IMG/VR virus record: IMGVR_UViG_3300045902_000324
Coordinates: 1-64,000 of that record
DNA length: 64,000 nt
Origin: a virus
Strand: one strand, 5' to 3'
Of this stretch, positions 345-63,996 are shown piece by piece. Under the pieces are notes generated by a model. The model was given only the letters and a program-made list of their open reading frames with translations, searched no databases and was not told where the DNA came from. The position numbers were made by a program, and so were the translations under genes. Position 1 is the first letter of the stretch. Each line of letters starts with the position of its first letter.

Positions 345-565
345 TATCGTTTCTATTTTAGATGACGTTGTAAACCACTTTAACACCTATTTTTGAATTG
401 GGTGAAATAGCCAGAAATACCAGGTGAAAAATACGGGCTGAAACACCCATTCCCCAATTAACATAAAACGGCTAGAACATCCGCAGCGCATGGGGTTGAG
501 CCGTTTTTACCCGAAAATACCCAATTAAATTTCCCCCAAACTACCCCATGACACCACACTAGGCA

Positions 566-13253: not shown

Positions 13254-13298
13254 TTGATACGAGATTGGGCAATATTTCTAACACTTCACGATTGCCCA

Positions 13299-22938: not shown

Positions 22939-23793
22939 TCAATCGGTACTGCGCCGTGCCTTCTTAACGAGATACATCCTTTTATCGGATTCATGTAGCG
23001 CTTCCTCGGCACTGGATGGCGGCACTTCAAAGGACACCCATCCAATCGAGTGTCCTACGGGCAGTTTCAGGTCAAACCCGGCAACCATTTCGTCCAGGTT
23101 GCGCTGGATTCTATCGATTGCCGCCTTCGCCTGCCGCTCAGTCGTGTTGCTGAGCAGTATTGCGAACGCATCACCTCCAATCCTCGCAACGGTGTCTGTA
23201 CGCCTCACGCACGCTACAGTCTGCCGCAGAAACTCGTCACCCATCGAATGTCCACAGTAGTCATTGATCAGCTTGAATCGATCAACGTCAATGTAGGCGA
23301 TCGTGAACGGCGACCCGTACATCATTGACTTATCTATCTCTGCATTCAACTGCTCCATAAAGTGCAGTCGGTTTAGCGCTCCCGTGAGCTGGTCAGTTCG
23401 AGCAAGTAATCTCTCTCTTTCATGCGCCTCCTTCAGGCTAGAAACCAGGCGCACTACGGAAAGCAAAATTATCAGTCTTGACACAACATTCCAGATAGGG
23501 ATGAGCGCACTGCCGTACTCTCGTGTCGTCAGATCGCATATTTTCCACAGGGTGAGAGACACAACTGTGGACACCACGCCGGACTTAAAACCTAGCCTAC
23601 TGGCAATTACAGCGATAGGGATGACGTAGAAAAATGCGATCACTATATTCTGATAGTCAACCGCGTAATCTACGGCGGCGATCGCCACAATAGTTATGTA
23701 TGCGGCGATCACAACTCTGCGTTTTGATTGCGTCTCCAACCAATAGATTGCGCGATCGCCATAGCCCGTGATGCTACATTGCGAGGTCTTCAC
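22939..23793 (-). CDS. membrane-bound GGDEF diguanylate cyclase-like protein
   Basis: 284 residues from GTG with AGGAG upstream. Residues 27-118 form about four membrane helices. The C-terminal GGDEF domain has RTDQLTGALNR (132-142), YIDVDRFKLINDYCGH (167-182), the I-site RRTD (197-200) and the active loop GGDAF (206-210). The fourth loop residue is Ala instead of Glu, so catalysis may be weak or absent, while the allosteric c-di-GMP site is kept; it could act as a synthase or a receptor. A minus-strand late-type motif GGGCACTGTCC (23819-23829) precedes it. Confidence 0.85.
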   Translation of the reverse strand: MKTSQCSITGYGDRAIYWLETQSKRRVVIAAYITIVAIAAVDYAVDYQNIVIAFFYVIPIAVIASRLGFKSGVVSTVVSLTLWKICDLTTREYGSALIPIWNVVSRLIILLSVVRLVSSLKEAHERERLLARTDQLTGALNRLHFMEQLNAEIDKSMMYGSPFTIAYIDVDRFKLINDYCGHSMGDEFLRQTVACVRRTDTVARIGGDAFAILLSNTTERQAKAAIDRIQRNLDEMVAGFDLKLPVGHSIGWVSFEVPPSSAEEALHESDKRMYLVKKARRSTD

Positions 23794-24792: not shown

Positions 24793-25557
24793 TTATCGCT
24801 TGAGACTCGCCAGCTTTACGGGCAGCGTCTCAAGCAAGTGTGCGATTAGCGCGTTGTTGCAGGGTACGGGGTGCCCGCGCCGCTCCGACTCTATCTCTGC
24901 AAGCCTGTGGATCATGTCCACGACACGAGGGTTCGTGATTCTGAATCGAGCCAGCGTCTTGGTGGAGGTGGTTTCGACCGTCTTCACGGCAGTCTGGTTG
25001 AACAAGTCCAGCAAATCGAGCGAATCTTGCAACTCAGGACTAGGTTCTGGCTCCAACTCGTCTTCCACAACCGGATCAGTCCACGCTTCTAGTGCTGGTT
25101 GACCATCTGTATACCCTTCCAGTGCTGCGATACGTTGCTCCAGACGTGCGATCGCCTCCACAACCTGTGGAAACTCCTGTTGCGGTTCGTGCCAGCCAAG
25201 CGCCTGCTGGATAAACACGCGGGCACCAACGGATGCGAACAGACGGAACCACCGCTGCGCCTGTTCTGTACGATAGCGTCCTGCGTCGAATGCATAGTAT
25301 TCCAAGATGAGCATGACTGCCTTATCAGGAATGCCAGATCCGCAAAATGCACCCCCCTCAAACCCATGCTCTGCAAGAGTTTTAGACAGGCTCGACTCAC
25401 TTAGCGCAACACCCTGAATATGCCGAAGAACGGATGAAGGTTCGACCCCTGCCAGCCGAGCAGCACCGCGAATTGATGCATACGCAACGCCGTCATCTGA
25501 AATACGGAACTCCGAACGATACTGGTCGAACATGTTTGCTACATTGGAATCAATCAC
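24793..25557 (-). CDS. antirepressor-like protein
   Basis: 254 residues from GTG 25557, which has AAGGA upstream; the ORF runs to ATG 25590 inside a hairpin. The N-terminal domain (GVAYASIRGAARLAGVEPSS, then IPDKAVMLILEYYAFDAGRY and FIQQALGW) follows a cyanobacterial phage antirepressor/KilA-like pattern. A Glu/Leu-rich helical linker leads to a separate C-terminal domain ending PVKLASLKR. Likely counteracts a prophage repressor in lytic switching (inference). Own promoter and terminator. Confidence 0.65.
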   Translation of the reverse strand: MIDSNVANMFDQYRSEFRISDDGVAYASIRGAARLAGVEPSSVLRHIQGVALSESSLSKTLAEHGFEGGAFCGSGIPDKAVMLILEYYAFDAGRYRTEQAQRWFRLFASVGARVFIQQALGWHEPQQEFPQVVEAIARLEQRIAALEGYTDGQPALEAWTDPVVEDELEPEPSPELQDSLDLLDLFNQTAVKTVETTSTKTLARFRITNPRVVDMIHRLAEIESERRGHPVPCNNALIAHLLETLPVKLASLKR

Positions 25558-25582
25558 TGTGTTTTTCCTTGTGAAACTGCAA

Positions 25583-25606
25583 GCCTCCATTTTTTGGAGG
25601 CGTTTT
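25583..25606. promoter_or_regulatory. hairpin in the antirepressor leader
   Basis: GCCTCC / GGAGGC stem. On the plus strand it is followed by GTTTTT (terminator-like); on the minus strand it lies in the leader between promoter and GTG start and contains the alternative ATG 25590. Confidence 0.45.
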
Positions 25607-42555: not shown

Positions 42556-43350
42556 CTATCCGTTAGGGTCTACTTGACAATGCCCAATGTGCTCAGACAG
42601 TGGCGCAGGCATACCCACAGCGAAGCCCTGCAACAAAAGGTCGCACTGTGGGTATGGACGCACCATCTCGTTCAACTCAGATATCAACGAGTCTGATTCG
42701 ACCCACTCGGCAATACACAACAATCTAAGATCGTGACAAATGCTGAACAACCCTCGGATAACAGCCCGATGTTTTGAGCTGTCCAGAACTCTAATCACAA
42801 ACCCGCCGTTTATCTTTAGTCCGTCAATCTCTAGATTCACGATTGAGTCTAGATTTGAGTAACCTATCCCAATATCGTCAAGCAAAATGGGAGACAATAG
42901 CGCCATACGCATCACGCTATCCCCAATTACTCGATAGTCGAGAGGCTGAGACTCAAGTACTTCTAGAATCAAACACGGCTCGATTAAACCGGACAGTACA
43001 TCACCAACCCGGTCAGGTAAATCTTTATCGTGCAGTGATGCCGCCGTTAGATTAACTGTAATTCTAATGTGCAGGTATCCACACGCTCTGAGCATCCGTA
43101 AATCATCGACAACTTGCCGCAACACCCAGGCATCAAGTGCGATCGCCAGCGTGTCAATTTCAAGAACGTCTGGAACGAACTGAGCCGCTTCAATGACACT
43201 CCCATCAGACCGGGACATCCGAATCAGAGCCTCAAACATTTTTGCAGGCTGCCCCAGTTCTGACGGACGTTTTACTGGCTGATAGTAGACTCGCAAATCG
43301 CCACCGCCAGCCCGCAGTGCGTCCCACACTTTTTGTTGTATCTGGTTCAT
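42556..43350 (-). CDS. EAL-domain c-di-GMP phosphodiesterase
   Basis: 264 residues starting at the ATG that overlaps the gpJ stop (TGATG); the ORF extends upstream but that part is gpJ. A stand-alone EAL domain with every signature residue visible: EAL (E40), VNLT (N100), LEVLES (E130/E133), LLDDIGIGYSNL (D158, D159), GLKING (K179), IAEWVES (E215, E218), LLQGF (Q241). It should hydrolyse c-di-GMP to pGpG. Translational coupling to the tail tip gene means late expression with virion proteins. Confidence 0.9.
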   Translation of the reverse strand: MNQIQQKVWDALRAGGGDLRVYYQPVKRPSELGQPAKMFEALIRMSRSDGSVIEAAQFVPDVLEIDTLAIALDAWVLRQVVDDLRMLRACGYLHIRITVNLTAASLHDKDLPDRVGDVLSGLIEPCLILEVLESQPLDYRVIGDSVMRMALLSPILLDDIGIGYSNLDSIVNLEIDGLKINGGFVIRVLDSSKHRAVIRGLFSICHDLRLLCIAEWVESDSLISELNEMVRPYPQCDLLLQGFAVGMPAPLSEHIGHCQVDPNG

Positions 43351-46064
43351 CAAACGAAAACTAGATTCTGGGATCTGGACATATCCAAACCACCTGTGAT
43401 TGCTGCAATCACAGGCTGGCTGTTTACCCACAGCGAGGTGCGATTGTTAACATCAAGCACGGCGGCGCGACAGTAGTATGTTCCCCTGGTCAGATTCTCG
43501 AAACGACACTCATTGGTGCCTGCGGGCACTAGTCGAGTGTCCTGCCATACAATCCCATCGCGGGAATATTCAACATACACGCCGCGCAGGACGGACGCAC
43601 TGGCTCCAACAACCCATCGGATGATCAACGTGTACTGCGGAGAAACAGACGGGTCAATCGCCTGTACAGCGATCGCCTGCCCCAAAACAGATTGAAGTGG
43701 TTCTACAACAGGTGGAATCGTAAACCGAGTTGGGGTCGGATCAATGGCTATATCATTCTCAATGGCAAGCCATTTGTTCGCATCGTACTGGATGCAGTTG
43801 ATGTCGATTTTTGTCGGGTCTTGCTGCGGGCGGACTGAGAGCACTCTAAACAGTTGAGCTTTCACCGAAGGCGACTGAATTACCCAATTCGATTCAGCCT
43901 GTGGGAGCTGCGAGAACGGCGGCCACACCTGTACCACATTTGACGTGACATTAACGCCGATCGTCCGGGTTTCGAGCAATCCGTTTGGCAACATGACAGA
44001 AAGCGTCATGCTCGTATTTACGGTGACTGTCGCGTCTAATCGAATCGTGTTAGAGTTAATAACTTGTCCGATCAACCCGCCATAGCGAACGTTGGCAAAG
44101 TTTGAGTCTGCGACTTGAATCACTTCACCGGGTCGGCAGTATGCAGCGTAGCTTCGAGCGGTGAAACTTAGCGATCGCGTTTCATTCTTCGAGCTGTACA
44201 GAATCCATCTACTATTTCTAATCGCTAGAGATCTTGAGGTGCACCCAAAAAAAGCAACCTCAACATCGCGGACACCATAGCGGTTGATCGCCTCAATATC
44301 CTCGACTACTTCCACAGCCCGTTGGTAATAGTCATTCGGGTCATTCCAGACACCTCTAACAATCGTATGCCGAGTGCGGACAGCCGTTGAGGAATAAACG
44401 AAATCCCCTACCACATCAGCCTGTGTGAACTGATGATGACTCACCGGAGTTGGACGATCTTGCCAGAACTTTACGGTACCCTCCGCCCAGTATGCCCGCA
44501 TGTGGCACGCCGAGCAAAAGGCGTTGATTACATCCCACGCTTTTTCAGCGGAGGCGATTTGAGTGTTGCAGGAATATCGGCGCTCAGATCCGCCGAATCC
44601 CGTAGGTACATACCCATTGTTATAAACAGACGCATCATACAGATCCCACTTGTCGATTAAAGAGTCATCCAAGTATCGACCCAGCCCATAGCGCCGATTT
44701 GTCAAAATGTCGAACAGTTGCCAAACCGGGTCACTGGTGGCTGTTGCAGGTGTATAGAAATTGCCGTCCCACACGCCTGAGAAGTTCAGCCCGCGATCGC
44801 CTGCGACAATAGCATTCGTGGGAATCCGAACACGCCGTCCACCAACTCGATACTGACGAGACGGGATCGAGCTGAACTGGTCTGGGCTAAACTGAAGCCC
44901 GATATACGCTGTATACGGATAATTCAACTTATTGGTCGTGACCTCGGTATAGCTAATCCACCGAACCACCTGAATTGTGCGAGACGAGTTGGAATCACTT
45001 GAAATACGCCTCAGTCGGATCTGAAAATTGCCGACCGTACCAGACTGGTTGTTTACCTTGAAAGCGTGCTCAAACTCAGTCAGTCCACTAAACTTAGCTT
45101 TCAGATTTTTTCTGTAGCGAACTGTCCAGGGCGCGATGCCCTGCTTTATTTCGATCTGGTACTCTACGTTCGTCCCCTTTACATCTCCATCCTCCTCATA
45201 CTTCACGAGTTGGATGCCCAGGCGAACACGTATGACATCACACTCCGTGTTCACAAATGCGCGAGTCGCTGGGCCGGACGCATTCTTGATTTCAATATTT
45301 ACAAAAGTCTCATTGCTGATCTCAACTCCTTCGTCTGAGATAATCTGCTGCGTTGCGTTCCCGCGCCGGAACTTATACCGGAAGCCCACAAAGTTGAGTG
45401 AGTTATTTGGGTTCTGGACAGGCGTCTCAGATAGATAAATCCCTTTACGAGCACCAATCAGCCCTTCAATCGGGCCCTCTGAAACAGCCTCCAAGACGTA
45501 CGCTCTTGAGGTCGATCGCCCGTCGTCATCGGCCTCCTTTGGGCTGGACGCATTTTTTCCGCCGCCTCCGTTGTGAACACGCAGCCCATGTTCGCCAACC
45601 AGGAAGCTGTGGTAGTTCTCAACTCGCAGATTCCATACGGGTGCCACGCCACGCAGTCTAGATCGCTCCAGAGGTCTAACCAGGTTTTCTCTATCAAATA
45701 GCGCAGCGTCTCGGCCAAGCTTGCCTATCTCCTGAAACGCCCCGCCATCGGTCAGAAACCAGTGGATCGGAGTTGCTGCTATGGTGCCGCCCCAGTAATC
45801 GTACTCCCACACCTCGTGGTTTCCGTGGAACTCTAGCGTTGCTTTGGCTACATGCAAATCGCCTTTTGAGTCAAACGCTGATACCCATGTACCCTCCGCC
45901 ACATCCTGGATTTCTACAGTGCCATCTAGCGTGTGGATTAGCGTGCCGGACGGGAAACACCCCCCGCCTGATCCAAAAACAAGCCCGTCCACATGGCTTG
46001 ACGGGATGGATGCAACAGCCTTAGTGCGGCGACGCCTAACCTTCGTCATCGGAATCATCCTCAA
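43350..46064 (-). CDS. tail tip protein J with an inserted Hint domain
   Basis: 904 residues. After the Hint insert (36-165) the chain resumes with KNASSPKEADDDGRSTS, YVLEAVSEGPIEGLIG and later WQLFDILTNRRYGLGRYLDD, matching the lambda gpJ family; the C-terminus has fibronectin-III-like beta sequence. Shorter than lambda gpJ (1132). The N-terminal 35 residues are basic and Ser/Gly-rich. ATG 46064 overlaps gpI; internal ATGs at 46058 and 46049 are also possible. Tail tip and host recognition hub. Confidence 0.85.
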   Translation of the reverse strand: MRMIPMTKVRRRRTKAVASIPSSHVDGLVFGSGGGCFPSGTLIHTLDGTVEIQDVAEGTWVSAFDSKGDLHVAKATLEFHGNHEVWEYDYWGGTIAATPIHWFLTDGGAFQEIGKLGRDAALFDRENLVRPLERSRLRGVAPVWNLRVENYHSFLVGEHGLRVHNGGGGKNASSPKEADDDGRSTSRAYVLEAVSEGPIEGLIGARKGIYLSETPVQNPNNSLNFVGFRYKFRRGNATQQIISDEGVEISNETFVNIEIKNASGPATRAFVNTECDVIRVRLGIQLVKYEEDGDVKGTNVEYQIEIKQGIAPWTVRYRKNLKAKFSGLTEFEHAFKVNNQSGTVGNFQIRLRRISSDSNSSRTIQVVRWISYTEVTTNKLNYPYTAYIGLQFSPDQFSSIPSRQYRVGGRRVRIPTNAIVAGDRGLNFSGVWDGNFYTPATATSDPVWQLFDILTNRRYGLGRYLDDSLIDKWDLYDASVYNNGYVPTGFGGSERRYSCNTQIASAEKAWDVINAFCSACHMRAYWAEGTVKFWQDRPTPVSHHQFTQADVVGDFVYSSTAVRTRHTIVRGVWNDPNDYYQRAVEVVEDIEAINRYGVRDVEVAFFGCTSRSLAIRNSRWILYSSKNETRSLSFTARSYAAYCRPGEVIQVADSNFANVRYGGLIGQVINSNTIRLDATVTVNTSMTLSVMLPNGLLETRTIGVNVTSNVVQVWPPFSQLPQAESNWVIQSPSVKAQLFRVLSVRPQQDPTKIDINCIQYDANKWLAIENDIAIDPTPTRFTIPPVVEPLQSVLGQAIAVQAIDPSVSPQYTLIIRWVVGASASVLRGVYVEYSRDGIVWQDTRLVPAGTNECRFENLTRGTYYCRAAVLDVNNRTSLWVNSQPVIAAITGGLDMSRSQNLVFV
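45570..45959 (-). other. bacterial-intein-like Hint domain in gpJ
   Basis: Encodes gpJ residues 36-165. Begins CFPSGTLIHTLDG (Hint block A, nucleophile Cys36), has TPIHWFLTD (TxxH, block B) and ends YHSFLVGEHGLRVHN (blocks F/G). The next residue is Gly, not Cys/Ser/Thr, as in type A bacterial intein-like domains. 130 residues, too short for a homing endonuclease. Flanked by GSGGG and GGGGK. Confidence 0.85.
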
Positions 46065-48488: not shown

Positions 48489-49220
48489 ATGGAACCCTTC
48501 AACCTTCAGTCGGCAAAGCCATTAGCGTTTCTCTCACCGGAACAAATCACATGGGTTCAGCACCAACTAAAGCGAGGTGCATACCTGGAAAAAGTGGACG
48601 GCATCGTGGGGCCTGCCACACTGAACGCTCTAAAGTCGTTCAAATCTGATTTCTACCTTGAGCATCCAGAGTTGATCGGCAACACAACTCTCAAGGCTCT
48701 GTCTGAACTCGACCCACCGGATAAAGTCACTGAGCAAGCAACCGAGATTATTCTGACGGTGAACGCAGCCGCCGGATCTAGAACAGGTCGATCCGCCACA
48801 CTGCCGGGAGCTGGGCTGGTCTACGCAAACCAGTGGATCAGACCCGGCATCCCACTTACGTGGGGCGAAATGACTAAAGATATGACACGTCTCCCAACCG
48901 ACAAAACAGTAGTCGCCAACATTGTCAACTTTGCCGCCGCATTTGGACAGATTCGAGCCAAGTTTGGTTCTCCTATTGCAATCACGTCTGGGTATCGCCC
49001 AAAGGCAGTAAACGATGCGATCGGCGGAGCATCCAAATCTCAGCACGTACCTGGCAAGGCTGCGGACATCCGCCCAGCTAACGGCGAATTCGACAAGCTC
49101 TTAGCAGTTCTCAAATCAATTGATGCGGTCGGAGGCATTGGGCTAGGCGAGAAAGCTGGCGGGTTTCTCCACGCAGATACCAGGGAGAAGCGAGTCATTT
49201 TTCCATACGGTAGCCGCTGA
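48489..49220 (+). CDS. endolysin, M15 peptidase with peptidoglycan-binding domain
   Basis: 243 residues from ATG 48489. Residues 1-75 form a PG_binding_1 domain (KRGAYLEKVDGIVGPATLNA). C-terminal M15/VanY-type peptidase: ITSGYRPKAVNDA, SQHVPGKAADI (S-x-H-x6-D) and FLHADT (H-x-D) give the zinc ligands. Cuts wall peptides at lysis. Longer ORF start at 48303 overlaps gpM and is not supported. Confidence 0.85.
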   Translation: MEPFNLQSAKPLAFLSPEQITWVQHQLKRGAYLEKVDGIVGPATLNALKSFKSDFYLEHPELIGNTTLKALSELDPPDKVTEQATEIILTVNAAAGSRTGRSATLPGAGLVYANQWIRPGIPLTWGEMTKDMTRLPTDKTVVANIVNFAAAFGQIRAKFGSPIAITSGYRPKAVNDAIGGASKSQHVPGKAADIRPANGEFDKLLAVLKSIDAVGGIGLGEKAGGFLHADTREKRVIFPYGSR

Positions 49221-49435
49221 TGCACAAGACAATCACCGTCGAATGGATTTTTCACGGACTGGCGATCGCCATGCTGCTGCGCGGGTTCTTCTCTGGAGCC
49301 GACATGATGCAGGAGGCTACCACAGCAGGGGTCATCATCGCGCTAGGTCGAGGATTGCCAACCGAAAAGGTTGACCATGTACTCGACAAGTACGACCGTC
49401 CAATCTTTCCTAGCGACCCACCGGATGACGCCTGA
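49220..49435 (+). CDS. possible holin or lysis accessory
   Basis: 71 residues coupled to the endolysin stop (TGATG). One or two moderately hydrophobic segments (WIFHGLAIAMLLRGFF, TTAGVIIALG) and an acidic tail. Context suggests a holin-type role, but the membrane segments are weak. Confidence 0.45.
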   Translation: MHKTITVEWIFHGLAIAMLLRGFFSGADMMQEATTAGVIIALGRGLPTEKVDHVLDKYDRPIFPSDPPDDA

Positions 49436-49536
49436 ATCCAATTGGGAGAAATCCATTTTTAATTGGGAGAAATGCCAATAGCCAGGCATGACAGACCACA
49501 CTGTCAGCACGAATGACACACCCAATGACAGCCTAA

Positions 49537-49564
49537 AACCCTTGCCCACCAAGGGTTGTTTTTT
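49537..49564 (+). terminator. terminator of lysis genes, inside element 2
   Basis: AACCCTT / AAGGGTT stem followed by GTTTTTT. Mirrors the minus-strand terminator at 50036-50066. Confidence 0.75.
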
Positions 49565-50035
49565 ATCTGTCGAGAGTATCTGTCATGACCTGTCATGGTG
49601 CTGTCAGAGCGTGTCAGACAGGCTGGAAGTATTGATATATATAGCGTTTGGCGACCTGTCATGACTGTCTCGCAGTTTCACAATAAAGAAACGTGTAAAA
49701 AACGGCTGAAACAGGAGGAAAAGGGTTCAAATGTACTATCGCTGAGAGGGTCTGAGGTGCTGGCGGAAGCATCGGGAAACATAGAGGTGTCCACAGTCAA
49801 AAGAAAAGTGGAATGGAAAAGCCTTTCATATATTTCTCTAATTCTCTAGACCCATTTTTGAGTAGTACATTTGTATTTTTTATCCCTCTTTTAGCCCTCT
49901 CAGACACTATTTTTTTATTGCAAATGGGCGAGACAGTCATGACATGTGTCTCAACCCCTTGTGTGGTAACGGTTGTAGCCTGTCTGACTAGCTCGGACAC
50001 ACCCATGACAGGTCATGACAGATACTTTTTTGGAA

Positions 50036-50066
50036 TAAAAAAGAACCCTTGTATATCAAGGGTTCT
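50036..50066 (-). terminator. terminator of radC transcript, inside element 2
   Basis: Minus strand GAACCCTTG / CAAGGGTTC stem followed by TTTTTT. With its mirror copy it would stop both converging transcripts before the core of element 2. Confidence 0.8.
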
Positions 50067-50165
50067 AGCTGTCTCGCTCGTATGATGCGTGGTCTGACGG
50101 GTCTGCCTGTCACGCCTCTGTCAGGGCATTTCTCCCAATTAAAATCATATTTCTCCCAATTGGTT

Positions 50166-50864
50166 TTACTTGTTCCACAGATCTGCCTTTTCCTGTCTGA
50201 AGCTGTAAAACGTGTTTGCGCCAACTACGATGTGATCGAGCACTGGCAGATGCATTACCTTTGCTGCATCTAACATACGTTTTGTCAGTTCCACATCCTG
50301 TGGAGACGGGTCAGGGTTGCCAGAAGGGTGATTGTGCGCGATAACGCAGGACGCGCCGTTAGCCGATATAACAGCCTTAAACACTTGCTGGGGCGTGACA
50401 ATGCACTCATCAACCGATCCTTGGCTGACTGTTTTTATCGAGATCACGTCGTATTTTGTAGTCAATACGATAACCACGAGTTTTTCTGTGGTTGCGTGCG
50501 CCAGATCGTATTTGAGTAGCGCGTAAATCGATTCTGGGTTGTTGATCCTGATTTTTCCGGGGCTTGCAAGAAAAACCCGTTTTCCAAATTCTGTAGCAGC
50601 AAGTAGCCTAGTGGCCTGAGCGCCCGTTAAGCCCGCTGTGGTCAGCTCGTAGTGGGATGAGTTGCGGAAGCGTGCCCACGCCTGTTCCTGGTCGAATAAC
50701 CCAACGTTCAAGCAGATATTTTCGACGACAGAGGTTGCCGTTTCCACAGTGCAGCCAACAACGGCTGAAATTAGCTCTGCGATCGCCGTAGCCTGCGGTT
50801 CATGTTGGACACGCAAGGTCGTCCACTGGGACTGCGATGAATCTGCGACTCTCCAAAATGACAT
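50166..50864 (-). CDS. radC: RadC-like JAB-domain protein
   Basis: 232 residues from ATG 50864 with AGGAG 8 nt upstream; the ORF start at 50978 crosses the upstream terminator. C-terminal RadC/JAB domain with AHNHPSGNPDPSPQD (HxH ... S ... D) and VLDHIVVGANTFYSF. The N-terminal half is helical. Common on mobile elements; proposed recombination or antirestriction role, biochemical function unsettled. Confidence 0.85.
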   Translation of the reverse strand: MSFWRVADSSQSQWTTLRVQHEPQATAIAELISAVVGCTVETATSVVENICLNVGLFDQEQAWARFRNSSHYELTTAGLTGAQATRLLAATEFGKRVFLASPGKIRINNPESIYALLKYDLAHATTEKLVVIVLTTKYDVISIKTVSQGSVDECIVTPQQVFKAVISANGASCVIAHNHPSGNPDPSPQDVELTKRMLDAAKVMHLPVLDHIVVGANTFYSFRQEKADLWNK

Positions 50865-51238: not shown

Positions 51239-51646
51239 TCAAGCTATAGGCGAGTCTTGAGCCTTAATGTATTCCTTAAGTTTCTCAATTGGCGCTCCAC
51301 CTGTTGAAGCCACATAGTAAGAGCCTGACCAGAAAGACTGTTTTGTGTACCACTTTGAGAACTCTTCAGAAAACTCTTTTTTGACCATGCGGCTAGTTGC
51401 CGCCTTGAGAGAACCTGCAACAGCGGCAATCGACTGTTTGGGATGAAAATCGACTAGCAGGTGAATATGATCCGCTTCTCCAGAACATTCCAACAATTCA
51501 CAGTCCATCGTTCTACAGACTTGCCAGCACATTTCTCTAATCCGTTCCAGCATTGCAGCAGTAATTGCTTTGCGCCTGTAATGGGTAACGAATACGAAGT
51601 GTAACCGCACACTAAAAACACTGTGTGAACCCTTCCTAGCCTTCAT
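51239..51646 (-). CDS. tnpA: Y1 (HUH) transposase TnpA
   Basis: 135 residues. HUH motif ADHIHLLVDF (H60, H62) and helix EKLKEYIKAQ with probable catalytic Tyr126. Full length for the IS200/IS605 family, so apparently intact. Acts on single-stranded DNA, which fits residence in a replication locus. Confidence 0.9.
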   Translation of the reverse strand: MKARKGSHSVFSVRLHFVFVTHYRRKAITAAMLERIREMCWQVCRTMDCELLECSGEADHIHLLVDFHPKQSIAAVAGSLKAATSRMVKKEFSEEFSKWYTKQSFWSGSYYVASTGGAPIEKLKEYIKAQDSPIA

Positions 51647-51680
51647 TGCAAATACCCCACCTGCAAGATATAATGCTCTT

Positions 51681-52934
51681 ATGATGACACGCAGAGTTAC
51701 CTTTAGGCTGTATCCATCTGAAGCGCAAACGGCAAAGCTGTTTGAGGCTCGGAGGCTTCACGCCTATCTCTATAACGCTTGCGTTGAGCATCGTAAAACG
51801 AGCTATCAGAAGTTTGGCAAGTCCATCAGCTATTTTGATCAGCAAGCCGCGCTTGTACCGTTTAAGGCTGATTGGCAGGAGTATAGAGCGCTCAATCATG
51901 GCTCATTGCAAGCCACAGTGAAGCGGGTTGATTTTGCCTTCCAGCGCTTTTTCAAAGGACTGGGTGGGTATCCCAAGTTTCAAGCGATTCGCCGTTACTC
52001 TGGCTGGACATACCCTGATGCCCGTCAAGGCTTTAAGGTGCATTCAGACGGCAAGAATGGATACTTGGAATTGCGGGATCTAGGGCTAAAGCTCCAGATG
52101 CGAGGGCAAGCGCGAACTTGGGGCGCTCCCACGACTTGCACAATTGTCTATCGTAACGGGCTATGGTTTGCCAGCATCACGGTAAATTGCGAGGTTGCGC
52201 GCAAAACCGGCAATGGCGCGGTAGGAATCGATTTTGGCGTACTGACGGCTGCGGCATTGTCAAATGGAACCAAGATCGAAAACCCGCGCTTCATTGCCAA
52301 AACGCAAGCCAAGGTTCGCAAAGCAAGCAAGGCAAAGCGTCGCAAGCGCTCACCCAATCTCAAGCAAAAAGTTAAAGCGTCAAAACGATGGAGGAAAGCG
52401 TCTAAGCGGGTATCAAAGCTGCAACGCAAAGTTGCAAATCAGCGGCAGAACTGGGTACATCAAGTCTCTACACAGATAGTCAGCAGTAATAGCTTGGTAG
52501 CGACTGAAAAGTTAAACCTCAAAGGGATGACTCGCAAGGCGAGGAAAGGAAAACGCAAGGCGCAAAAGTCAGGGCTAAACCGCTCCATTCTGGATGTTGG
52601 GATGGGGATGTTGCGCGCTGCGATTGCGTATAAGTTGGCGGAAGCAGGGGGTTTCTTTGTGGAGGTGCCGACGCTCACGGTTAAGCCTTCTCAGACTTGC
52701 CCCAGTTGTGGTCATCAGGAGAAAAAACCACTTGAGCAGCGAGTGCATCATTGCCAGCAATGCGGTTATGTGGAGGATAGAGATGTGGCGGCTGCTCAAG
52801 TCATGCTCAATTGGGCACGGGGTAAGGAACTTGCCTCGTCAAACGTGGATGGGTCTGGCTCTACTGACTGCGGAAGCATGAAGCAACTAGCCCAAACGAA
52901 GCGTCAGAAACTCCTAGCTCAGCGAAGCGGCTAG
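51681..52934 (+). CDS. tnpB: RNA-guided nuclease TnpB
   Basis: 417 residues. N-terminal HTH (MTRRVTFRLYPSEAQTAKLF), RuvC-like catalytic residues in AVGIDFGVL (Asp about 183), VATEKLNLKGM (Glu about 276) and VEDRDVAAAQVM (Asp about 369), plus a zinc ribbon CPSCG ... CQQCG. All catalytic positions intact. The guide omega-RNA would come from the 3' end of the gene and the right hairpin. Confidence 0.9.
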   Translation: MMTRRVTFRLYPSEAQTAKLFEARRLHAYLYNACVEHRKTSYQKFGKSISYFDQQAALVPFKADWQEYRALNHGSLQATVKRVDFAFQRFFKGLGGYPKFQAIRRYSGWTYPDARQGFKVHSDGKNGYLELRDLGLKLQMRGQARTWGAPTTCTIVYRNGLWFASITVNCEVARKTGNGAVGIDFGVLTAAALSNGTKIENPRFIAKTQAKVRKASKAKRRKRSPNLKQKVKASKRWRKASKRVSKLQRKVANQRQNWVHQVSTQIVSSNSLVATEKLNLKGMTRKARKGKRKAQKSGLNRSILDVGMGMLRAAIAYKLAEAGGFFVEVPTLTVKPSQTCPSCGHQEKKPLEQRVHHCQQCGYVEDRDVAAAQVMLNWARGKELASSNVDGSGSTDCGSMKQLAQTKRQKLLAQRSG

Positions 52935-53428
52935 GAGTAGTTCATGCCTGTCTTTATTTTATCACTATCACCAATCGTAACTGCGATCGCCAATCCATCC
53001 CAAGCGTCGTCTGTAGGATGCATGGTAGCCAAGTCAAACCGAGCCTTCATCACGTCGCGCATTGCTGGCTTGGGCGTGTTGCCTTTTCCAGTAATTATCT
53101 TTTTTACCTCGCCAGGAGTCACCCACAGAGGGATTGCGCCAAATTCATACAGGGCGAGTGATACGGCTCCGAATGCCGAAACAACCTCAAACCCGCAGCG
53201 TGTGGTGCGGAGGTCTGGTTTTTCAATGGCGATCTGGTCTGGTTTCCATGCTTCTACCAGGTTCGTCACTTCATTTCCGAGCTGTTTCAGTCGCTCGACG
53301 TAGTGATCTTTTGGAGACGTGGTGATGATGCCGTGGGCCAGGTGCTCACATGACCCGTCTTTATTTCTTTTTACAACGCCCCAGCCGAGCGTTGCATATC
53401 CAATATCGATTCCAACGTGAATAGCCAT
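52931..53428 (-). CDS. ruvC: RuvC-like Holliday junction resolvase
   Basis: 165 residues. Acidic residues in HVGIDIGYATLGWG, QIAIEKPDL and PTDDAWDGLAIAV match RuvC. Starts on the polymerase stop (TAATG). The last codons (Asn-Tyr-Ser-stop) are supplied by the right end of the IS element, so the native C-terminus is replaced. Resolves recombination or branched replication intermediates before packaging. Confidence 0.85.
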   Translation of the reverse strand: MAIHVGIDIGYATLGWGVVKRNKDGSCEHLAHGIITTSPKDHYVERLKQLGNEVTNLVEAWKPDQIAIEKPDLRTTRCGFEVVSAFGAVSLALYEFGAIPLWVTPGEVKKIITGKGNTPKPAMRDVMKARFDLATMHPTDDAWDGLAIAVTIGDSDKIKTGMNYS

Positions 53429-55440
53429 TATTTCTCATCCCAGGATTTGCAACAGGTTGACACCGGATCGATGTCCATCTCATCCGGTTGAATCGAGCTA
53501 ACGAACAGTGACATCGCCGCCCGCATCTGCGTCTGGACGAACGTAGCGACCTCTTTCTTAAACTCTTCCTTACACACCACGTCAAGCTCGTCGTGTGCCA
53601 TGTTTGCCATGTACGCACCCCACTCAGGGTGTGCCAGGAACCCCAGGTATAGCCCAGCCATCGACAGTTTCACCACATCCGCCTCTGTGGATGTCCAGAC
53701 GAACGAAACTGCGTCTGTCGCCTTTACTGAGGGCGGATCATTGGGGCGGTAGTCCGAAATCATTTTCTGCATCCACAACCGCCGACCGCTCAACCCTCTG
53801 TTCTCACCGTAGACAACGCCGCCGAACTCGATTTCGATCTCATTGATGTCGTCAACGATAGCGTCCTGCTCCTCACTAAGATCCGCGTATGTTTCATGCC
53901 ACGCCTTGGCTGCGTCTTTTGCAGCATCATCCGCAAGCTCAAAGCCTGCGTCAGTTAGAACGGTCGCCTGTAGCGTTTTCCAGCCCTGCTTATTCAGCGA
54001 CCCGTAGTAGACGGGTTTAGCAGCGTTCCGCAGCTTTCCAGCCATTCGGAAGTTCTCATGGCTCTTGTCTTTACGCCACTTGGCGATATCGTCTACCGTC
54101 CAGTGTAGTCCCTGCGACTGGGCCAGCCGTGCTGCGATAATACAGTGGTTGTCATATCCGTCCAGATATGATTTCAGAATCACCTTGTCGGCACTGACCT
54201 GCGCCGCAATTCTGCTGTGGGCCTGGCTTAGGTCAGCAATGATGAGCACATACCCATCAGGTACTCGAAAGATCGATCGAACCTGCGACAGTCCTAGCGC
54301 CCGTATCTCTGCGGGCATTTTCATTGGATTCGGCGGGTTCTGTAGGTTCACGTTCGGGAAATTCTGCCGCTTGGGGTCTTTATCCCCACACAGCGATCGC
54401 CCAAATCCCTTTGGTCCAAGCTGACGAAACGCACCGCGCACGGCCCCGTCAAAGTATGCCTGCTTACATCCGCGCAAATAGTCGATGTATGTGGTCATCG
54501 ACCGCCACAGCGAGAGCGCTTTTAGAGCGGGAATACCCCAGTGGGGAGCCAGCCCGTCCTGGTCGCTGCTGGTCAGGTGTAGACTGTACTTCTGATTAAT
54601 AGCCGAGATCAGTTGCTTCGGACTGTCTGGGTTCACATGAGGAAAATCAGATTTGAACGGCGCGATAATGCCTTCGCATTCTGCCTGGTAGCGAACTATC
54701 AAATCGTCCAGCCTCGCCTCATCGACCGGAAACCCTCGGTATTCCATCTGCACGAATGCAGGCAGAGCAAGACACTCAGCATTAGCTGGGCCTGTTAGCA
54801 GATCACGCTCCAACATTTCGGTCAAACGGCTTTCAATCGTCAGCACGTCAAGGCAATCGGCGGCTGCGTAGTTCAACTGAGAGATCCGCAAATCCCAGCC
54901 CCAATCTGACTTTTGCGCCTGCTTGTCCATTTCAATCCCGCATCGGGCGGCGATCGCTTCTAGCCCGTGTCTAACCTGAACCAGCCCAGCCCACATCACC
55001 TGGGACAGAAGCATCACGTCGCGTACGTTCTGCGCTTGAATGCCGTACTTTACGAGCAGATAGAGGAGGTCGAATTTTAGGTTTTGCCCAACTTTTTGCA
55101 CCTGTGGACTTTCCACAAGCTTTTTCAGGATCGAAAAGAACCCTGCGGTTTCTAGTGTCTTTGCGATCGCCTTTTTATCATCGTTGTGTCCGCCGAGATC
55201 TGCGATTATGCACCGTCCTTCCGGCAGTCCGATTTGGATGAGTCGAATGTGCCCCTTCCAGGGATTCAGCGCATCCTGAGCATTGTCGGAGGTACTGAAC
55301 GTCTCAATGTCCAGACCGAAGCGATCGGACTGCTCCCAAGCTGTCAGTGCGGCATTCCAGCCTGCGTCACCGAATCGGACGATGCGGGGGTCTATTTCTA
55401 CGTCTTCGGCAAAGAACAAAGATTGCTGGTTACTGAGCAT
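53428..55440 (-). CDS. family A DNA polymerase with proofreading exonuclease
   Basis: 670 residues from ATG 55440 (a TTG lies one codon before). DEDD exonuclease: RFGLDIETFS near 42-50. Polymerase motif A LIIADLSQAHSRIA: catalytic Asp kept, but the usual Glu of SQIELR is His. Motif B RNAAKPVYYGSLNKQG: Arg and Lys kept, Tyr at the Phe762 position as in T7, and Asn where Tyr766 is expected. Motif C MAHDELDV. No 5'-3' exonuclease domain. Likely the replicative polymerase. Confidence 0.9.
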   Translation of the reverse strand: MLSNQQSLFFAEDVEIDPRIVRFGDAGWNAALTAWEQSDRFGLDIETFSTSDNAQDALNPWKGHIRLIQIGLPEGRCIIADLGGHNDDKKAIAKTLETAGFFSILKKLVESPQVQKVGQNLKFDLLYLLVKYGIQAQNVRDVMLLSQVMWAGLVQVRHGLEAIAARCGIEMDKQAQKSDWGWDLRISQLNYAAADCLDVLTIESRLTEMLERDLLTGPANAECLALPAFVQMEYRGFPVDEARLDDLIVRYQAECEGIIAPFKSDFPHVNPDSPKQLISAINQKYSLHLTSSDQDGLAPHWGIPALKALSLWRSMTTYIDYLRGCKQAYFDGAVRGAFRQLGPKGFGRSLCGDKDPKRQNFPNVNLQNPPNPMKMPAEIRALGLSQVRSIFRVPDGYVLIIADLSQAHSRIAAQVSADKVILKSYLDGYDNHCIIAARLAQSQGLHWTVDDIAKWRKDKSHENFRMAGKLRNAAKPVYYGSLNKQGWKTLQATVLTDAGFELADDAAKDAAKAWHETYADLSEEQDAIVDDINEIEIEFGGVVYGENRGLSGRRLWMQKMISDYRPNDPPSVKATDAVSFVWTSTEADVVKLSMAGLYLGFLAHPEWGAYMANMAHDELDVVCKEEFKKEVATFVQTQMRAAMSLFVSSIQPDEMDIDPVSTCCKSWDEK

Positions 55441-56368
55441 CAATCTTCTCCGTAGTTGCCAGCGCCAGTGTGGACGGGTCAGTAATCCACGGCATCCAGC
55501 CGAAGATTCTCACCCAACCCAAACGGTTGATGCTTATGATATATGGGCGTTTCGAGTTCACCGCTTGAGCTGACGGGCTGGCGTGCGTCCAGATCACGGG
55601 ATCTCCTAATCTCAGCAACACGCCATCTTTCCCGACGACCGAATTTGTCCACATCGGGGTCAACTTGCGCTGATCCTCTGTGGGTACAAACGGAGCCTTG
55701 CGCCGCCTGGGTTTGCGCCGCGTAGATTTTTTGAACCCTGCGCCATGTACTGCTAGTTCGGCACCGCTCGGTAGCGTGCCTACCTGTACGCCTGCAACAC
55801 AGTTTTTCTCTACGGTGCCGTAGTAGTAATCAACACCTGAGTCACTCAGGACTACTCGGTTTTCAGGCGTGTAGGCGTCCCTGCCTACCAGAATCCACAC
55901 CGGGGTGTTTCCATCTTTTCTAGCTTTAGTGGTGCGCTCTATCACATGGGTTGTGTCGATTGGCGAGTCCTGGATGATAAACAATGTTCTCGACCCGTTA
56001 GCCAGCTCCAGTAGCACGTTGTTTTTTCTATCCCTGGAGTCAAGTCCTACATTCAGTGATTTCAGTCCTACGAGGTCAGAAAACATCTCCTGTAGACACT
56101 GCTTGAAAAGCAACACAGTGTCATCTGTATCTACACAAAATCGATTGTCGCCTGCGTGCTCAAAATGCGGAATAGCGCATCCATCGCCTGTCTTCCGGTA
56201 ATTCACATTCACCCATGCGTTCGCCTGAGACAGACAGTGTGGGCAGAATAGGGCATTGCTGCGGGCGAGTGACCGCATCTGGGCCCCAACCTTCAGGCTA
56301 GGCACACCTATCGCTACCTTCTTTGAGGGTGTGAACAGGATATGCTCACGAGTTACTGCTACCAGCAT
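55430..56368 (-). CDS. CoiA-like putative nuclease
   Basis: 312 residues. N-terminal zinc site LFCPHCLSQ and IPHFEHAGDN, then TLFIIQDSPIDTTHVIERTT and NTPVWILVGR, the CoiA layout (CPxC, HFxH, QxSxI, WIL). CoiA is a competence-associated protein with a PD-(D/E)XK-type fold. The C-terminal 90 residues are extra. Overlaps both prim-pol and polymerase genes, so translated with them. Confidence 0.7.
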   Translation of the reverse strand: MLVAVTREHILFTPSKKVAIGVPSLKVGAQMRSLARSNALFCPHCLSQANAWVNVNYRKTGDGCAIPHFEHAGDNRFCVDTDDTVLLFKQCLQEMFSDLVGLKSLNVGLDSRDRKNNVLLELANGSRTLFIIQDSPIDTTHVIERTTKARKDGNTPVWILVGRDAYTPENRVVLSDSGVDYYYGTVEKNCVAGVQVGTLPSGAELAVHGAGFKKSTRRKPRRRKAPFVPTEDQRKLTPMWTNSVVGKDGVLLRLGDPVIWTHASPSAQAVNSKRPYIISINRLGWVRIFGWMPWITDPSTLALATTEKIDAQ

Positions 56369-59300
56369 ATTTTTTGAGGATCAGAGGTTCGAGTTCTAGG
56401 ACTGGAGCACCCACAATGTCCGGCTGAAAGAGAATCGCGTTGAGTCCATCCTGGAACCCTACGATTACACCTGTCATGCCGACAGATGCGGAGAAACCCG
56501 TTTCAGCAATCTCATCCAGTATTTCTTTGGCTTCGTCTAGGTGCAACGCAGAGATATCAATCGCAGCGCGATCGCCAACGGTGAAACCATAGCCGGACTC
56601 GGATGTTTGGGTGCCCGTTCCTATATCGTCTTCTGTTTGATTCTGTATGTCAATGGTTTCATCGCACAAAGGCGATTCTTCTACGGGCGAAACGTCCTCC
56701 ACAGGTTCGGGCGGTGGTGCATCGGGTGGAGCGGGAACGTCTGTAGCGTTCTGGGCAAAATAGGTCACGATGCCGCGATCATTCTCTTCAATACGCCCGC
56801 GTCCAGACTCCTGAAGCTGTTTCAAGATGCTTAACGTCAAATCACCAACGGATACACCACTCTCCTTGGCCATGCGCTGGAGCGTGGATATCTTGCGGTA
56901 AATTTCCCGCATCGTTACGCCGCCAGCAAAACTCTCTGCGTACTCCTGGATTCGGAACGCCAGCGATGTCGGTTCACCGCTCTCGTCAGCCCGTGCCTGC
57001 ATTAGCAGGTTTTGGCGCAGGTAATACTTGCACAGCAAAATCGATCGCTCTAGCGTGGGAAGCTGGAGCAGCAGGTTGTCCTTAGACGGGTCAGCCGCGC
57101 ACTCCATGCAGTGCAGAACCAAAGCTAAGCGGCAGACGTATGCCTTCAACTTTGCGATGAAATTTCTGATAGCTTGCCTCTTCTCACGGAACCTGAGTTC
57201 GGCAAGGACGTTGTGGAACTGCACCAGCCTTCTATCGCTCTCATCCGTCAGCCGTACATCCTGCTGTGGAAAGGATTCCAGACCGTTGAAAATTCTATTC
57301 AATACCTCGTGTAGTGCATCCTTCTTGTCCTGCCGATTCTCTTTGTAGTCACGGTATGCGACCTCTGATTTTGGCGCAGCAATCAAAAATCGGGCCCGCT
57401 TACCATTGTCATCGTCGGGATCTTCAAATACCTTTTTGGCTACACCGGGCTGAAGCCCACCTGCCATCGACAGACGCGGGTTATGGATGGCGAACGTGCG
57501 ATCTTCGTCCATCCGGTTGACGCTGATCTGATTCGCGTCCCACAGCCCCAGCATGACCTCTACGTCATCCCCGCCGCGAGACTTGTACTGGCCAAGACCT
57601 CGGATAATTCCGGCGAACTCGTCCTTTGCCCACAAGGTGCCCGCGTTCTTTGGTTGCTGGGATAGCCCTTTTAGGACGGATTCAATTTGAGCGATGTCAA
57701 ACTTGTAATTCCTGCGCCTCGGCGCTGTGGGCACATCCCCGTCACCGTCCCCGTCTTCACCTTTCTTACGTTTGCGAGACGTTGCCTGGGCATACTCTTC
57801 ACGCGCTCTTTCATATCTCTCGTCAGCGAGTTTCTGTCTATCCTTAATCGGCTGAAGCATCGCGGATTCTGCGCGGGACTTACCGCCGCCAGACTCCTCA
57901 ATGATCAAAGCCCAGATTACGGCTGGCTCTTTCCAGTGGTTGTTGTCCGTTGCACCTTCCTGCACAATCAGGTTCGTTCTGCCACCGATCATGGATGCCG
58001 CCGATGGCAATAAATACTGAAGCAGCATTACTGGGCTTATGCCCATGCGCTTTGCACGGAAATCCATCGACTCCGCCAAGTCGCTAGGAAGCACGTCCTT
58101 TAACTCAACGTGCTGGTCTGCATACTGATACAGCTTGGCGATCTCCGAGCTGTCCACGAACATATCGCGGTCAACCTCTCGGAGGTCGCATCGCACCCGG
58201 TACATTTGCAAAAGCGTCTGCGGGTTTCTCGCAGAGCGTTCTGCGATATCCAGGACTTCCTTAATCGCCTGTCCCTCATTCAGGTGCCGTTTTACCAGCG
58301 CGTCAATGCACTGGCTAACTTCTTCGAGCGTGTGGATGCGGCGATCGCCCCCGCCATTCCCGTTACCGCCATTTCCGTTATCCCCGCCTCCGCTGCCGTT
58401 GCTCCCACCGCTACCGTTCCCATTGCCGTTTCCTCCGGCTACTGGAGTACCGTTGCGGCTGGGCGGATCATACGGCACTGTGGACGGCGCACTTAGCGAC
58501 GTTCTTATGTCCGCCGGGCACTTTTCCTGAAATAATTCTGGAACGAGGTGTTTCACTTTTTTCCACGCGGCTTCTTCGCCGCCCCCAAAGGTACAGGCAG
58601 GGCTGGCGGAGTTCCACCTAGCCGATTTAGCAATTCTCGTGGCGCGACCTGCGTCCACACCCATCCGCTCTCCAGCCGTCACCGTCAGTACAATCGGGTC
58701 GCCCGTTGTGGGTATCCCGTTCGCGCTACACCAGTTCATCCAAGAAATCCACTCGTTGGCGGCAGCCGTTAGCGTGGCGCTGCGGTCTGACTCTGTATCG
58801 ACCCCATTCAAAATGTCCTTAGACTTCTGACTACCTAGCCGTTCCAGAGCGATCGCATTTGGTGCATCGGACTGTGTGACCACTCCGTCAAACACGGCTG
58901 CTGATTTATTTTCAGAACGCCTAGCGTATAGCCCAATACTATCAAGCGTCGGTACTTCAATCAGAACCCCGAAGTTCTGAACAGTTTCGTACGCTCGTCC
59001 GCTGGGTCCCATAGTCGGGGACATGGCGCAGAAGCGTCCAACGGGCATCGCTTCGCCAATATGCTTGCCACCTGGCTCAAACGCAAAATTTGTGAACGCG
59101 GGCTTTTCTACCACAGCGACATAGACATGCCATCCGCCGCCCTGCGTCCGCTCTAACCACGCGCTTTTCAGGACGGGATACTTCTCAAGCCACTCACCGA
59201 AAACGCGATCGCTTTCTTCCTGACTATCAAAATTCTTTGCGTCCCAGTCAATCGGGACAAAGTGCCTGCCATCCGGCAGAACAAAACCCAGCGTGCCTAC

Positions 59301-59591
59301 ACCATTCTTCGAGTTAGCAAACCAGCGCTGGACTTCTCCTGCGGTAGGCACTTTGTTCTGGTACTTCGTGTGATAAAGCGGCTGCGGCACGCCCTTTGAG
59401 TCCAGCCAGCTTGGATTCTTGCCTGTGTAGCGAGGTAGCGCCTTTCCGTCCAATCCGACGACTACCTTACCATCCTTTTTCAGCGGGTACTTCGTAGCGC
59501 TCTGTACGGGTGCAATTGGGAGAGCAGGTAGTCCAGCCGCCTGTAGCCACCTAACGGTTTCTTTTAACGCGGGTTGTTTTGTCAGAAGCAT
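56346..59591 (-). CDS. primase-polymerase / DUF3987 helicase-like fusion
   Basis: 1081 residues. N-terminal bifunctional primase/polymerase: VPIDWDAKNF (Asp115/Asp117) and GGGWHVYV near 155. A Gly/Asn-rich linker near 380-425. C-terminal ATPase: Walker A IIEESGGGKSRAE near 580, Walker B GTLWAKDEFAG near 665, and LSMAGGLQPGVAKKVF. Resembles DUF3987 replicative proteins of plasmids and prophages. It would unwind and prime virus DNA. Confidence 0.8.
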   Translation of the reverse strand: MLLTKQPALKETVRWLQAAGLPALPIAPVQSATKYPLKKDGKVVVGLDGKALPRYTGKNPSWLDSKGVPQPLYHTKYQNKVPTAGEVQRWFANSKNGVGTLGFVLPDGRHFVPIDWDAKNFDSQEESDRVFGEWLEKYPVLKSAWLERTQGGGWHVYVAVVEKPAFTNFAFEPGGKHIGEAMPVGRFCAMSPTMGPSGRAYETVQNFGVLIEVPTLDSIGLYARRSENKSAAVFDGVVTQSDAPNAIALERLGSQKSKDILNGVDTESDRSATLTAAANEWISWMNWCSANGIPTTGDPIVLTVTAGERMGVDAGRATRIAKSARWNSASPACTFGGGEEAAWKKVKHLVPELFQEKCPADIRTSLSAPSTVPYDPPSRNGTPVAGGNGNGNGSGGSNGSGGGDNGNGGNGNGGGDRRIHTLEEVSQCIDALVKRHLNEGQAIKEVLDIAERSARNPQTLLQMYRVRCDLREVDRDMFVDSSEIAKLYQYADQHVELKDVLPSDLAESMDFRAKRMGISPVMLLQYLLPSAASMIGGRTNLIVQEGATDNNHWKEPAVIWALIIEESGGGKSRAESAMLQPIKDRQKLADERYERAREEYAQATSRKRKKGEDGDGDGDVPTAPRRRNYKFDIAQIESVLKGLSQQPKNAGTLWAKDEFAGIIRGLGQYKSRGGDDVEVMLGLWDANQISVNRMDEDRTFAIHNPRLSMAGGLQPGVAKKVFEDPDDDNGKRARFLIAAPKSEVAYRDYKENRQDKKDALHEVLNRIFNGLESFPQQDVRLTDESDRRLVQFHNVLAELRFREKRQAIRNFIAKLKAYVCRLALVLHCMECAADPSKDNLLLQLPTLERSILLCKYYLRQNLLMQARADESGEPTSLAFRIQEYAESFAGGVTMREIYRKISTLQRMAKESGVSVGDLTLSILKQLQESGRGRIEENDRGIVTYFAQNATDVPAPPDAPPPEPVEDVSPVEESPLCDETIDIQNQTEDDIGTGTQTSESGYGFTVGDRAAIDISALHLDEAKEILDEIAETGFSASVGMTGVIVGFQDGLNAILFQPDIVGAPVLELEPLILKKYAGSSNS
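56625..56653 (-). promoter_or_regulatory. early-type promoter internal to the prim-pol gene
   Basis: Minus strand TTGACA (56648-56653), 17-nt spacer, GACGAT (56625-56630), then ATAGGA. Lies about 280 nt before the end of the prim-pol gene; would boost CoiA-like, polymerase and RuvC. Confidence 0.6.
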
Positions 59592-63350: not shown

Positions 63351-63378
63351 AGTGTAGTATGTGCTTCTAGGAGTTCCC

Positions 63379-63996
63379 TTGTTAGAAAACCTTATTAAAA
63401 AGCTGTCCGATCATGTGGGCGGAGAGAGAGCTTTATCAAGATTGTCTGGAATATCGAAGTCCAGTTTGTCCAAGATAGCAACCGGGGAGTCCGATAAGCT
63501 CTCCCCGGAAAACCTGATAAGACTTGCTGAGACTACTCAACACTTGCTGGCAGACGGAAACCCTTTGCGAGATGAGATGGGACGAGATGTAGTCTACAGC
63601 GAGATCGAATTGATAGGGTTGGCATTTGGACTAGCGACGCCTCCCACACCAGTGGACTTATCCCCTGTAGCCGCATTCATTCGTGGAATACTTGCAGCAC
63701 ACGGGTACAATCCCTTTCAAAAATCTACTCTCGGTGCCGGAATTGACTGGTTCTTGGGACATTGTGCATTGTCAAAACTAACACCGGAAGTTAAAGAACA
63801 AAGAACGCAAACAATCCGGCTGTTGATTCGAGGCGATATCCGTATCGAACCGACCGACCCGATCTTGACTACTATCTCCAGAGCGATTAGCAAAATCGAC
63901 GGAGTGCCGTCAATTACCCCACTCATGCTACGGTCGATGCTGACGGACTCGCCCACAGAGGTCGAGCATGTGGACGAGCCTTGCCTAACACATTAA
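63379..63996 (+). CDS. XRE-type repressor-like regulator
   Basis: 205 residues from TTG 63379, which has AGGAG 5-6 nt upstream (the GTG at 63361 has none). N-terminal HTH (ALSRLSGISKSSLSKIATG ... ENLIRLAETTQ). No LexA-type protease motif seen in the rest, so control by an antirepressor such as the 24793 product is conceivable. Divergent from the early promoter at 63253. Confidence 0.7.
   Translation: MLENLIKKLSDHVGGERALSRLSGISKSSLSKIATGESDKLSPENLIRLAETTQHLLADGNPLRDEMGRDVVYSEIELIGLAFGLATPPTPVDLSPVAAFIRGILAAHGYNPFQKSTLGAGIDWFLGHCALSKLTPEVKEQRTQTIRLLIRGDIRIEPTDPILTTISRAISKIDGVPSITPLMLRSMLTDSPTEVEHVDEPCLTH

Follow-up and report, generated by a model that had tools for sequence, protein, structure and literature searches.

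What a long palindrome is doing between two convergent genes of an uncultured virus is the question raised by this locus. The window, a stretch of 64,000 nucleotides, comprises bases 1–64000 of a 97,462-bp record that is classed as linear. The record contains 93 HIP1 octamers (GCGATCGC), and its DUF3987 replication protein is closest to cyanobacterial plasmid proteins; from these two features, the host is probably a cyanobacterium. Several other genes of the phage were noted in passing. A protein with a TET-associated glycosyltransferase domain (G000 95777–96547; L010 14777–15547, minus strand) hints that the phage may modify bases of its DNA. A GGDEF diguanylate cyclase domain is encoded at 22939–23793 (minus strand), and two sigma-70 region 4 proteins, one of them also with region 2, are encoded at G000 83877–84923 and 87326–87961 (L010). 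The N-terminal part of the protein at 24793–25590 (minus strand) matched the BstA abortive-infection PHROG (E = 1.3e-7), which may reflect a shared DNA-binding domain only.

The earlier note described a 726-bp palindrome at 49438–50163 with its axis at 49800.5, and both span and axis proved exact. On this axis, 217 of 363 positions are mirror matches; all axes together average ~90.8–90.9 (sd 8.5), and the runner-up axis reaches 133. Instead of the five block pairs reported earlier, ten exact mirror blocks are 7 bp or longer, whereas 5000 random axes gave a mean of 0.02 and a maximum of 2. The ten blocks are CCAATTGGGAGAAAT, TTTTAATTGGGAGAAATGCC, AACCCTTG, CAAGGGTT, TTTTTTAT, AGTATCTGTCATGACCTGTCATGG, GTCAGACAGGCT, TGTCATGACTGTCTCGC, CAATAAA and CAAATGTACTA. 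The inner 60 bp per side are nearly asymmetric, with 21 of 60 mirror matches. We refer to this palindrome as E1, and its features are as follows.

49438–50163, no strand: E1, interrupted palindrome, axis 49800.5 (between 49800 and 49801)
49438–49738, no strand: E1 left arm, 71% identical to the right arm
49863–50163, no strand: E1 right arm, 71% identical to the left arm
49739–49862, no strand: E1 center, mostly asymmetric
49440–49473, plus: AATTGGGAGAAAT box pair, 21 bp apart, at the left outer edge
50128–50161, minus: AATTGGGAGAAAT box pair, 21 bp apart, at the right outer edge
49537–49566, plus: terminator-like hairpin AACCCTTG-n5-CAAGGGTT with a T run, pointing inward
50035–50066, minus: mirror copy of the terminator-like hairpin, pointing inward
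49581–49597, plus: TGTCATGACCTGTCATG double box, 10-bp phased, left arm; invariant in 4/4 arms
50004–50020, minus: TGTCATGACCTGTCATG double box, 10-bp phased, right arm
49657–49673, plus: TGTCATGACTGTCTCGC box, left arm
49928–49944, minus: TGTCATGACTGTCTCGC box, right arm
49728–49738, plus: CAAATGTACTA box, left border of the center
49863–49873, minus: CAAATGTACTA box, right border of the center

Among all 100-bp windows of the 97,462-bp record, the one at 49825–49924, which runs from the E1 center into the right arm, has the lowest stability, and we regard it as a candidate unwinding element. The surroundings agree with the earlier description of convergent genes with inward terminators: the 71-aa ORF ends at 49435, radC ends at 50166, and both inward hairpins are part of the palindrome arms. 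E1 begins 3 bases past the stop codon of the 71-aa ORF and stops 3 bases short of the radC end, so it fills almost the whole convergent intergenic space.

49220–49435, plus: 71-aa ORF after a peptidase M15 (endolysin-like) gene; convergent, left of E1
50166–50864, minus: RadC-domain protein (radC); convergent, right of E1, with a same-frame ORF to 50978
52931–59591, minus: replication cluster transcribed towards E1 (RuvC, DNA polymerase A, a 312-aa ORF, DUF3987)
within 52931–59591, minus: DUF3987 primase-helicase-type protein, initiator candidate

The 312-aa ORF of the cluster had no family match. Between radC and ruvC, an IS200/IS605-type pair consisting of a Y1 transposase and a TnpB-like protein is inserted at 51239–52934. 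No serine resolvase family was found in the record. On the other side of E1, the tail tip J-like protein at 43350–46064 (minus strand) carries an N-terminal insert resembling an intein/Hint domain (CFPSGTLIHTLDG...VHNGG), where Pfam reports J domains only.

When the E1 region was compared with the remainder of the record, a paralogous second palindrome emerged, E2, which lies inside the same window and was missed by the earlier note. Its arms (570–744 and 942–1118) are 73% complementary to each other (E = 5e-21).

570–1118, no strand: E2, interrupted palindrome, axis ~844, homologous to the E1 arms
617–643, plus: three TGTCATG boxes (TGTCATGACCTGTCATGACCTGTCATG) at 10-bp spacing, left arm
1045–1071, minus: three TGTCATG boxes at 10-bp spacing, right arm
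692–707, plus: TGTCATGCTGTCTCGC box, left arm
979–994, minus: TGTCATGCTGTCTCGC box, right arm
733–744, plus: AATTGGGGGAAA box, inside the left arm
942–953, minus: AATTGGGTGAAA box, inside the right arm
763–886, no strand: E2 center, with ATGTACTA boxes at 774 (plus) and 879 (minus)
1336–2445, minus: ParB protein with motifs GERRFRA and ENVSRKDMTFAEEA; ends ~220 bp from E2; candidate box binder

An extra AATTGGGTGAAA box without a mirror partner lies outside E2 at 396–407 (plus strand). Similarity between the two elements scored 259 in inverted versus 225 in direct orientation for the arms, and 447 versus 421 for the core, which only hints that E2 may be inverted relative to E1.

Three other accounts of E1 were discarded. 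An assembly artefact was rejected because of the arm identity of only 71% and by a second IMG/VR record of the same virus, in which the E1 locus is 100% identical across 12.7 kb. An RNA gene was rejected, with zero Rfam families and zero tRNAs in the window; the folded E1 strand reached z = −20.8 against shuffles, which is not telling because any palindrome is expected to fold strongly. A coding role was also rejected: the ORFs at 49595–49849 (plus strand) and 49797–50006 (minus strand) reflect the mirrored boxes, and the E2 center, read directly, has stops in the frames corresponding to ORFs through E1.

We then compared the arms of the two elements. A four-arm alignment ran in one order (AACCCTTG, TGTCATGACCTGTCATG, a GACAGGC-type box, TGTCATG(A)CTGTCTCGC, an A-rich tract, ATGTACTA), and the boxes AACCCTTG, TGTCATGACCTGTCATG, TGTCATG(A)CTGTCTCGC and ATGTACTA are common to all four arms. 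Because we found no relative beyond the same virus, conservation is judged here among four non-independent arms of one genome; on that footing, the invariant columns are strongly clustered (run statistic 628 vs. 198 ± 22 in shuffles), and this clustering, together with the existence of E2, supports the earlier claim that selection has kept the boxes. The TGTCATG boxes repeat every 10–11 bp, or one helical turn. The boxes are also nearly confined to the two elements: across the 97,462-bp record, E1 and E2 hold 8 of the 9 copies of TGTCATGAC, 4 of the 5 copies of ATGTACTA and 8 of the 10 copies of GTCATGAC, a palindrome by itself, and CTGTCA is enriched ~26-fold in the elements. Six of seven exact AATTGGGNGAAA matches in the record lie within the two palindromes, the seventh being at 396, 174 bp outside E2; the position of this box differs between the elements, with two copies at each outer edge of E1 and a single one inside each arm of E2.

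Could these arrays be no more than a passive leftover of an inverted duplication or of a mobile element, copied to a second place and now decaying? Replication errors can create palindromes, and changes common to both arms of one element (23 columns) are slightly more frequent than those shared by arms across elements (9 and 15), as copying between arms would give. However, the conserved positions cluster in identical boxes rather than being spread, the box order is kept in both elements, and no target-site duplication was seen on reading the flanks of E1. We consider such a relic very doubtful.

The earlier note had proposed searching related phages for the box array. Box patterns searched in viral contigs did return paired copies, but only from the same virus. 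When E1 DNA was compared with phages, plasmids and 386 cyanobacterial genomes, nothing beyond short stretches of 27–42 bp matched, and several of these fell on the terminator hairpins. Searches guided by the RadC, PolA, ParB, TerL and DUF3987 proteins led either to the same virus or to distant homologues, from plasmids and viruses, that lack palindromes of this type; a comparable palindrome was absent from Nodularia phage 2AV2, which has the nearest PolA, and from plasmid pMIC7113.02. Overall, no independent relative was found in the phage, plasmid, viral-contig and sampled cyanobacterial collections.

Next, we considered what the elements may do. The argument that the palindrome is not a promoter of its flanking genes fits E1 but cannot be transferred to E2, because E2 sits upstream of one minus-strand gene, which starts at 344. 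This position would suit a regulatory region duplicated in the genome, where a regulator of the phage binds its operators or pairs of promoters drive short transcripts. The inward terminators at E1 would suit it too; phased palindromic sites are also typical of operators, and among the phage proteins are two that resemble sigma factors and one with an HTH (63361–63996). Yet promoter-like sites are barely commoner than in shuffles, neither side of E1 has a gene downstream, and the boxes are nearly absent elsewhere in the record, unlike the operators of a regulon. Such a regulatory role appears unlikely.

Telomere resolution and packaging, both named in the earlier note, are disfavored. Hairpin telomeres do carry large palindromes, and a telomere-resolution, genome-end or packaging site would be consistent with that feature. 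Known telomere resolvase sites, however, are symmetric at the center, where E1 is not (21/60). The telomere resolvase family ResT-TelK (PF16684) and the tyrosine recombinase family Phage_integrase (PF00589) are absent from the record; moreover, two resolution sites would cut the genome in two. As for packaging, the large terminase gene (13254–14735) lies 12 kb from E2, the nearer element, and 35 kb from E1. We regard this group of functions as highly improbable.

A replication origin is the best fit among the proposed functions, because the box arrays surround a low-stability center and do so in two copies. We estimate a probability of about one half that E1 and E2 are a pair of replication-origin-type elements, similar to oriL and oriR of phage SPP1, with initiator boxes around an unwinding element. 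From what is observed directly (two elements, shared boxes, clustered conserved positions, near-confinement of the boxes, low-stability centers), we infer a replication function whose protein steps, directionality and division of labor would be as follows. A virus-encoded DNA-binding initiator, for which the DUF3987 primase-helicase, the ParB protein or an unnamed DNA-binding protein are candidates, would gather on the TGTCATGAC arrays, which are mirrored and in phase with the helix. Once bound, it would bend or strain the DNA until the low-stability center melts, and helicase and polymerase would load there, with the mirrored arms permitting loading in both directions. In an SPP1-like scheme, one copy could fire first and the other could serve as a second origin or a fork barrier.

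Several findings speak for origins. The phased repeats are candidate binding sites, kept in all four arms and almost restricted to E1 and E2, and the two paralogous elements share one architecture in which conserved positions are clustered into boxes. A low-stability element lies beside the repeats in both cases, ranking first in the record at E1 and among the least stable 0.4% at E2 (763–862, a 100-bp window); this support is modest and not decisive, because low stability is common in intergenic DNA and other loci come close. E1 also abuts radC and lies beside the leftward cluster with RuvC, PolA and the DUF3987 protein. Other findings speak against origins. The turning point in GC skew predicted by the earlier note was absent at both E1 and E2, overall and at four-fold sites with the coding strand separated; such a strand-composition change is the usual mark of bidirectional origins but no strict requirement. 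Genes co-oriented with forks running from E2 to E1 amount to an unremarkable 73%, a value matched by 18% of arbitrary diametric axes. No DnaA-type box cluster was found, no initiator gene with internal boxes lies beside E1 or E2, and the lack of an independent relative also counts against this reading.

The placement of the two elements depends on the form of the genome. Joining the record ends gave one continuous ORF through the junction; no homologue bridging this junction turned up in a search of 386 genomes. Judged by frame continuity alone, the genome is likely closed or circularly permuted. If it is a complete circle, E1 and E2 would be half a genome apart, at distances of 48,956 and 48,506 bp (0.502 of the genome), a placement that we also count in favor of origins. 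On a closed circle, two random points would be placed so diametrically with a chance of ~0.5%, a coincidence that we noticed post hoc.

The main rival to the origin reading is a ParB-binding site. In that case, E2 and E1 would offer centromere-like or nucleation sites to the phage ParB, whose dimers would first load on the palindromic TGTCATGACA of both elements and then spread; this would serve silencing, DNA condensation or the partition of a prophage that is extrachromosomal. A ParB gene does lie ~220 bp from E2; its product has intact GERR and ENxxR motifs and matches Spo0J/Noc/ParB structures. GTCATGAC is palindromic like parS and concentrated in the elements, and in P1 and F the centromere is also downstream of parB. 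However, ParA-type ATPases (AAA_31, CbiA; PF13614, PF01656) are absent from the record. The ParB N terminus has no nearby ParA-binding motif, defined as (L/F/I)G(K/R)G(L/F/I) (PMC12704722). Mirrored arms around a low-stability center are not required for partition, and E1, the larger element, would lie half a genome from parB. We regard a centromere-like role as possible but less likely than an origin. The two readings could also be joined: E1 and E2 would be mirror-symmetric origins at opposite poles of a circular replicating form, bound by a phage initiator or the orphan ParB, combining firing, fork blocking and DNA organization. No description of this two-origin kind was found for phages, and we consider the combination rather unlikely.

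For large phages that infect uncultured cyanobacteria, the place and manner of replication start have been little described. The present genome, with its two long arrays of mirrored boxes around centers of low stability, offers a concrete dual-origin candidate, and the neighboring orphan ParB hints at a possible role for ParA-less ParB proteins in phages.

Known systems resemble these elements to different degrees. N15-like hairpin-telomere sites share a large inverted repeat in a phage genome, whereas E1 and E2 have an asymmetric center, occur as two copies per genome and come with no telomere resolvase family found. Arrays of parS with ParB (P1, F, Spo0J, Noc) compare well in the ParB gene beside E2 and in the palindromic sites; they differ in that ParA was not found here, the arrays are mirrored around a low-stability center, and the second copy is far from parB. 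In herpes simplex virus (HSV) oriS and oriL, inversely oriented boxes for the origin-binding protein flank an AT-rich spacer, and there are several origins per genome (PMC12543377). The mirrored box plan and the multiple origins are alike, but the HSV element is far smaller, has three boxes and belongs to an unrelated virus, so that a sequence relation is not expected. SPP1 has two loci, oriL and oriR, each combining an AT-rich unwinding element with repeats that a single origin-binding protein recognizes (PMC6316719, PMC3485210). The SPP1 repeats are direct and bound by gp38, oriL lies inside gene 38 and the spacing is 12–13 kb, whereas E1 and E2 are mirrored arrays 550–730 bp long, half a genome apart, whose binder is a candidate only. 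The likeness of this Bacillus phage to our virus lies in the two similarly organized loci in a siphovirus-type genome, in the combination of repeats with an AT-rich unwinding element, and in the intergenic position of oriR.
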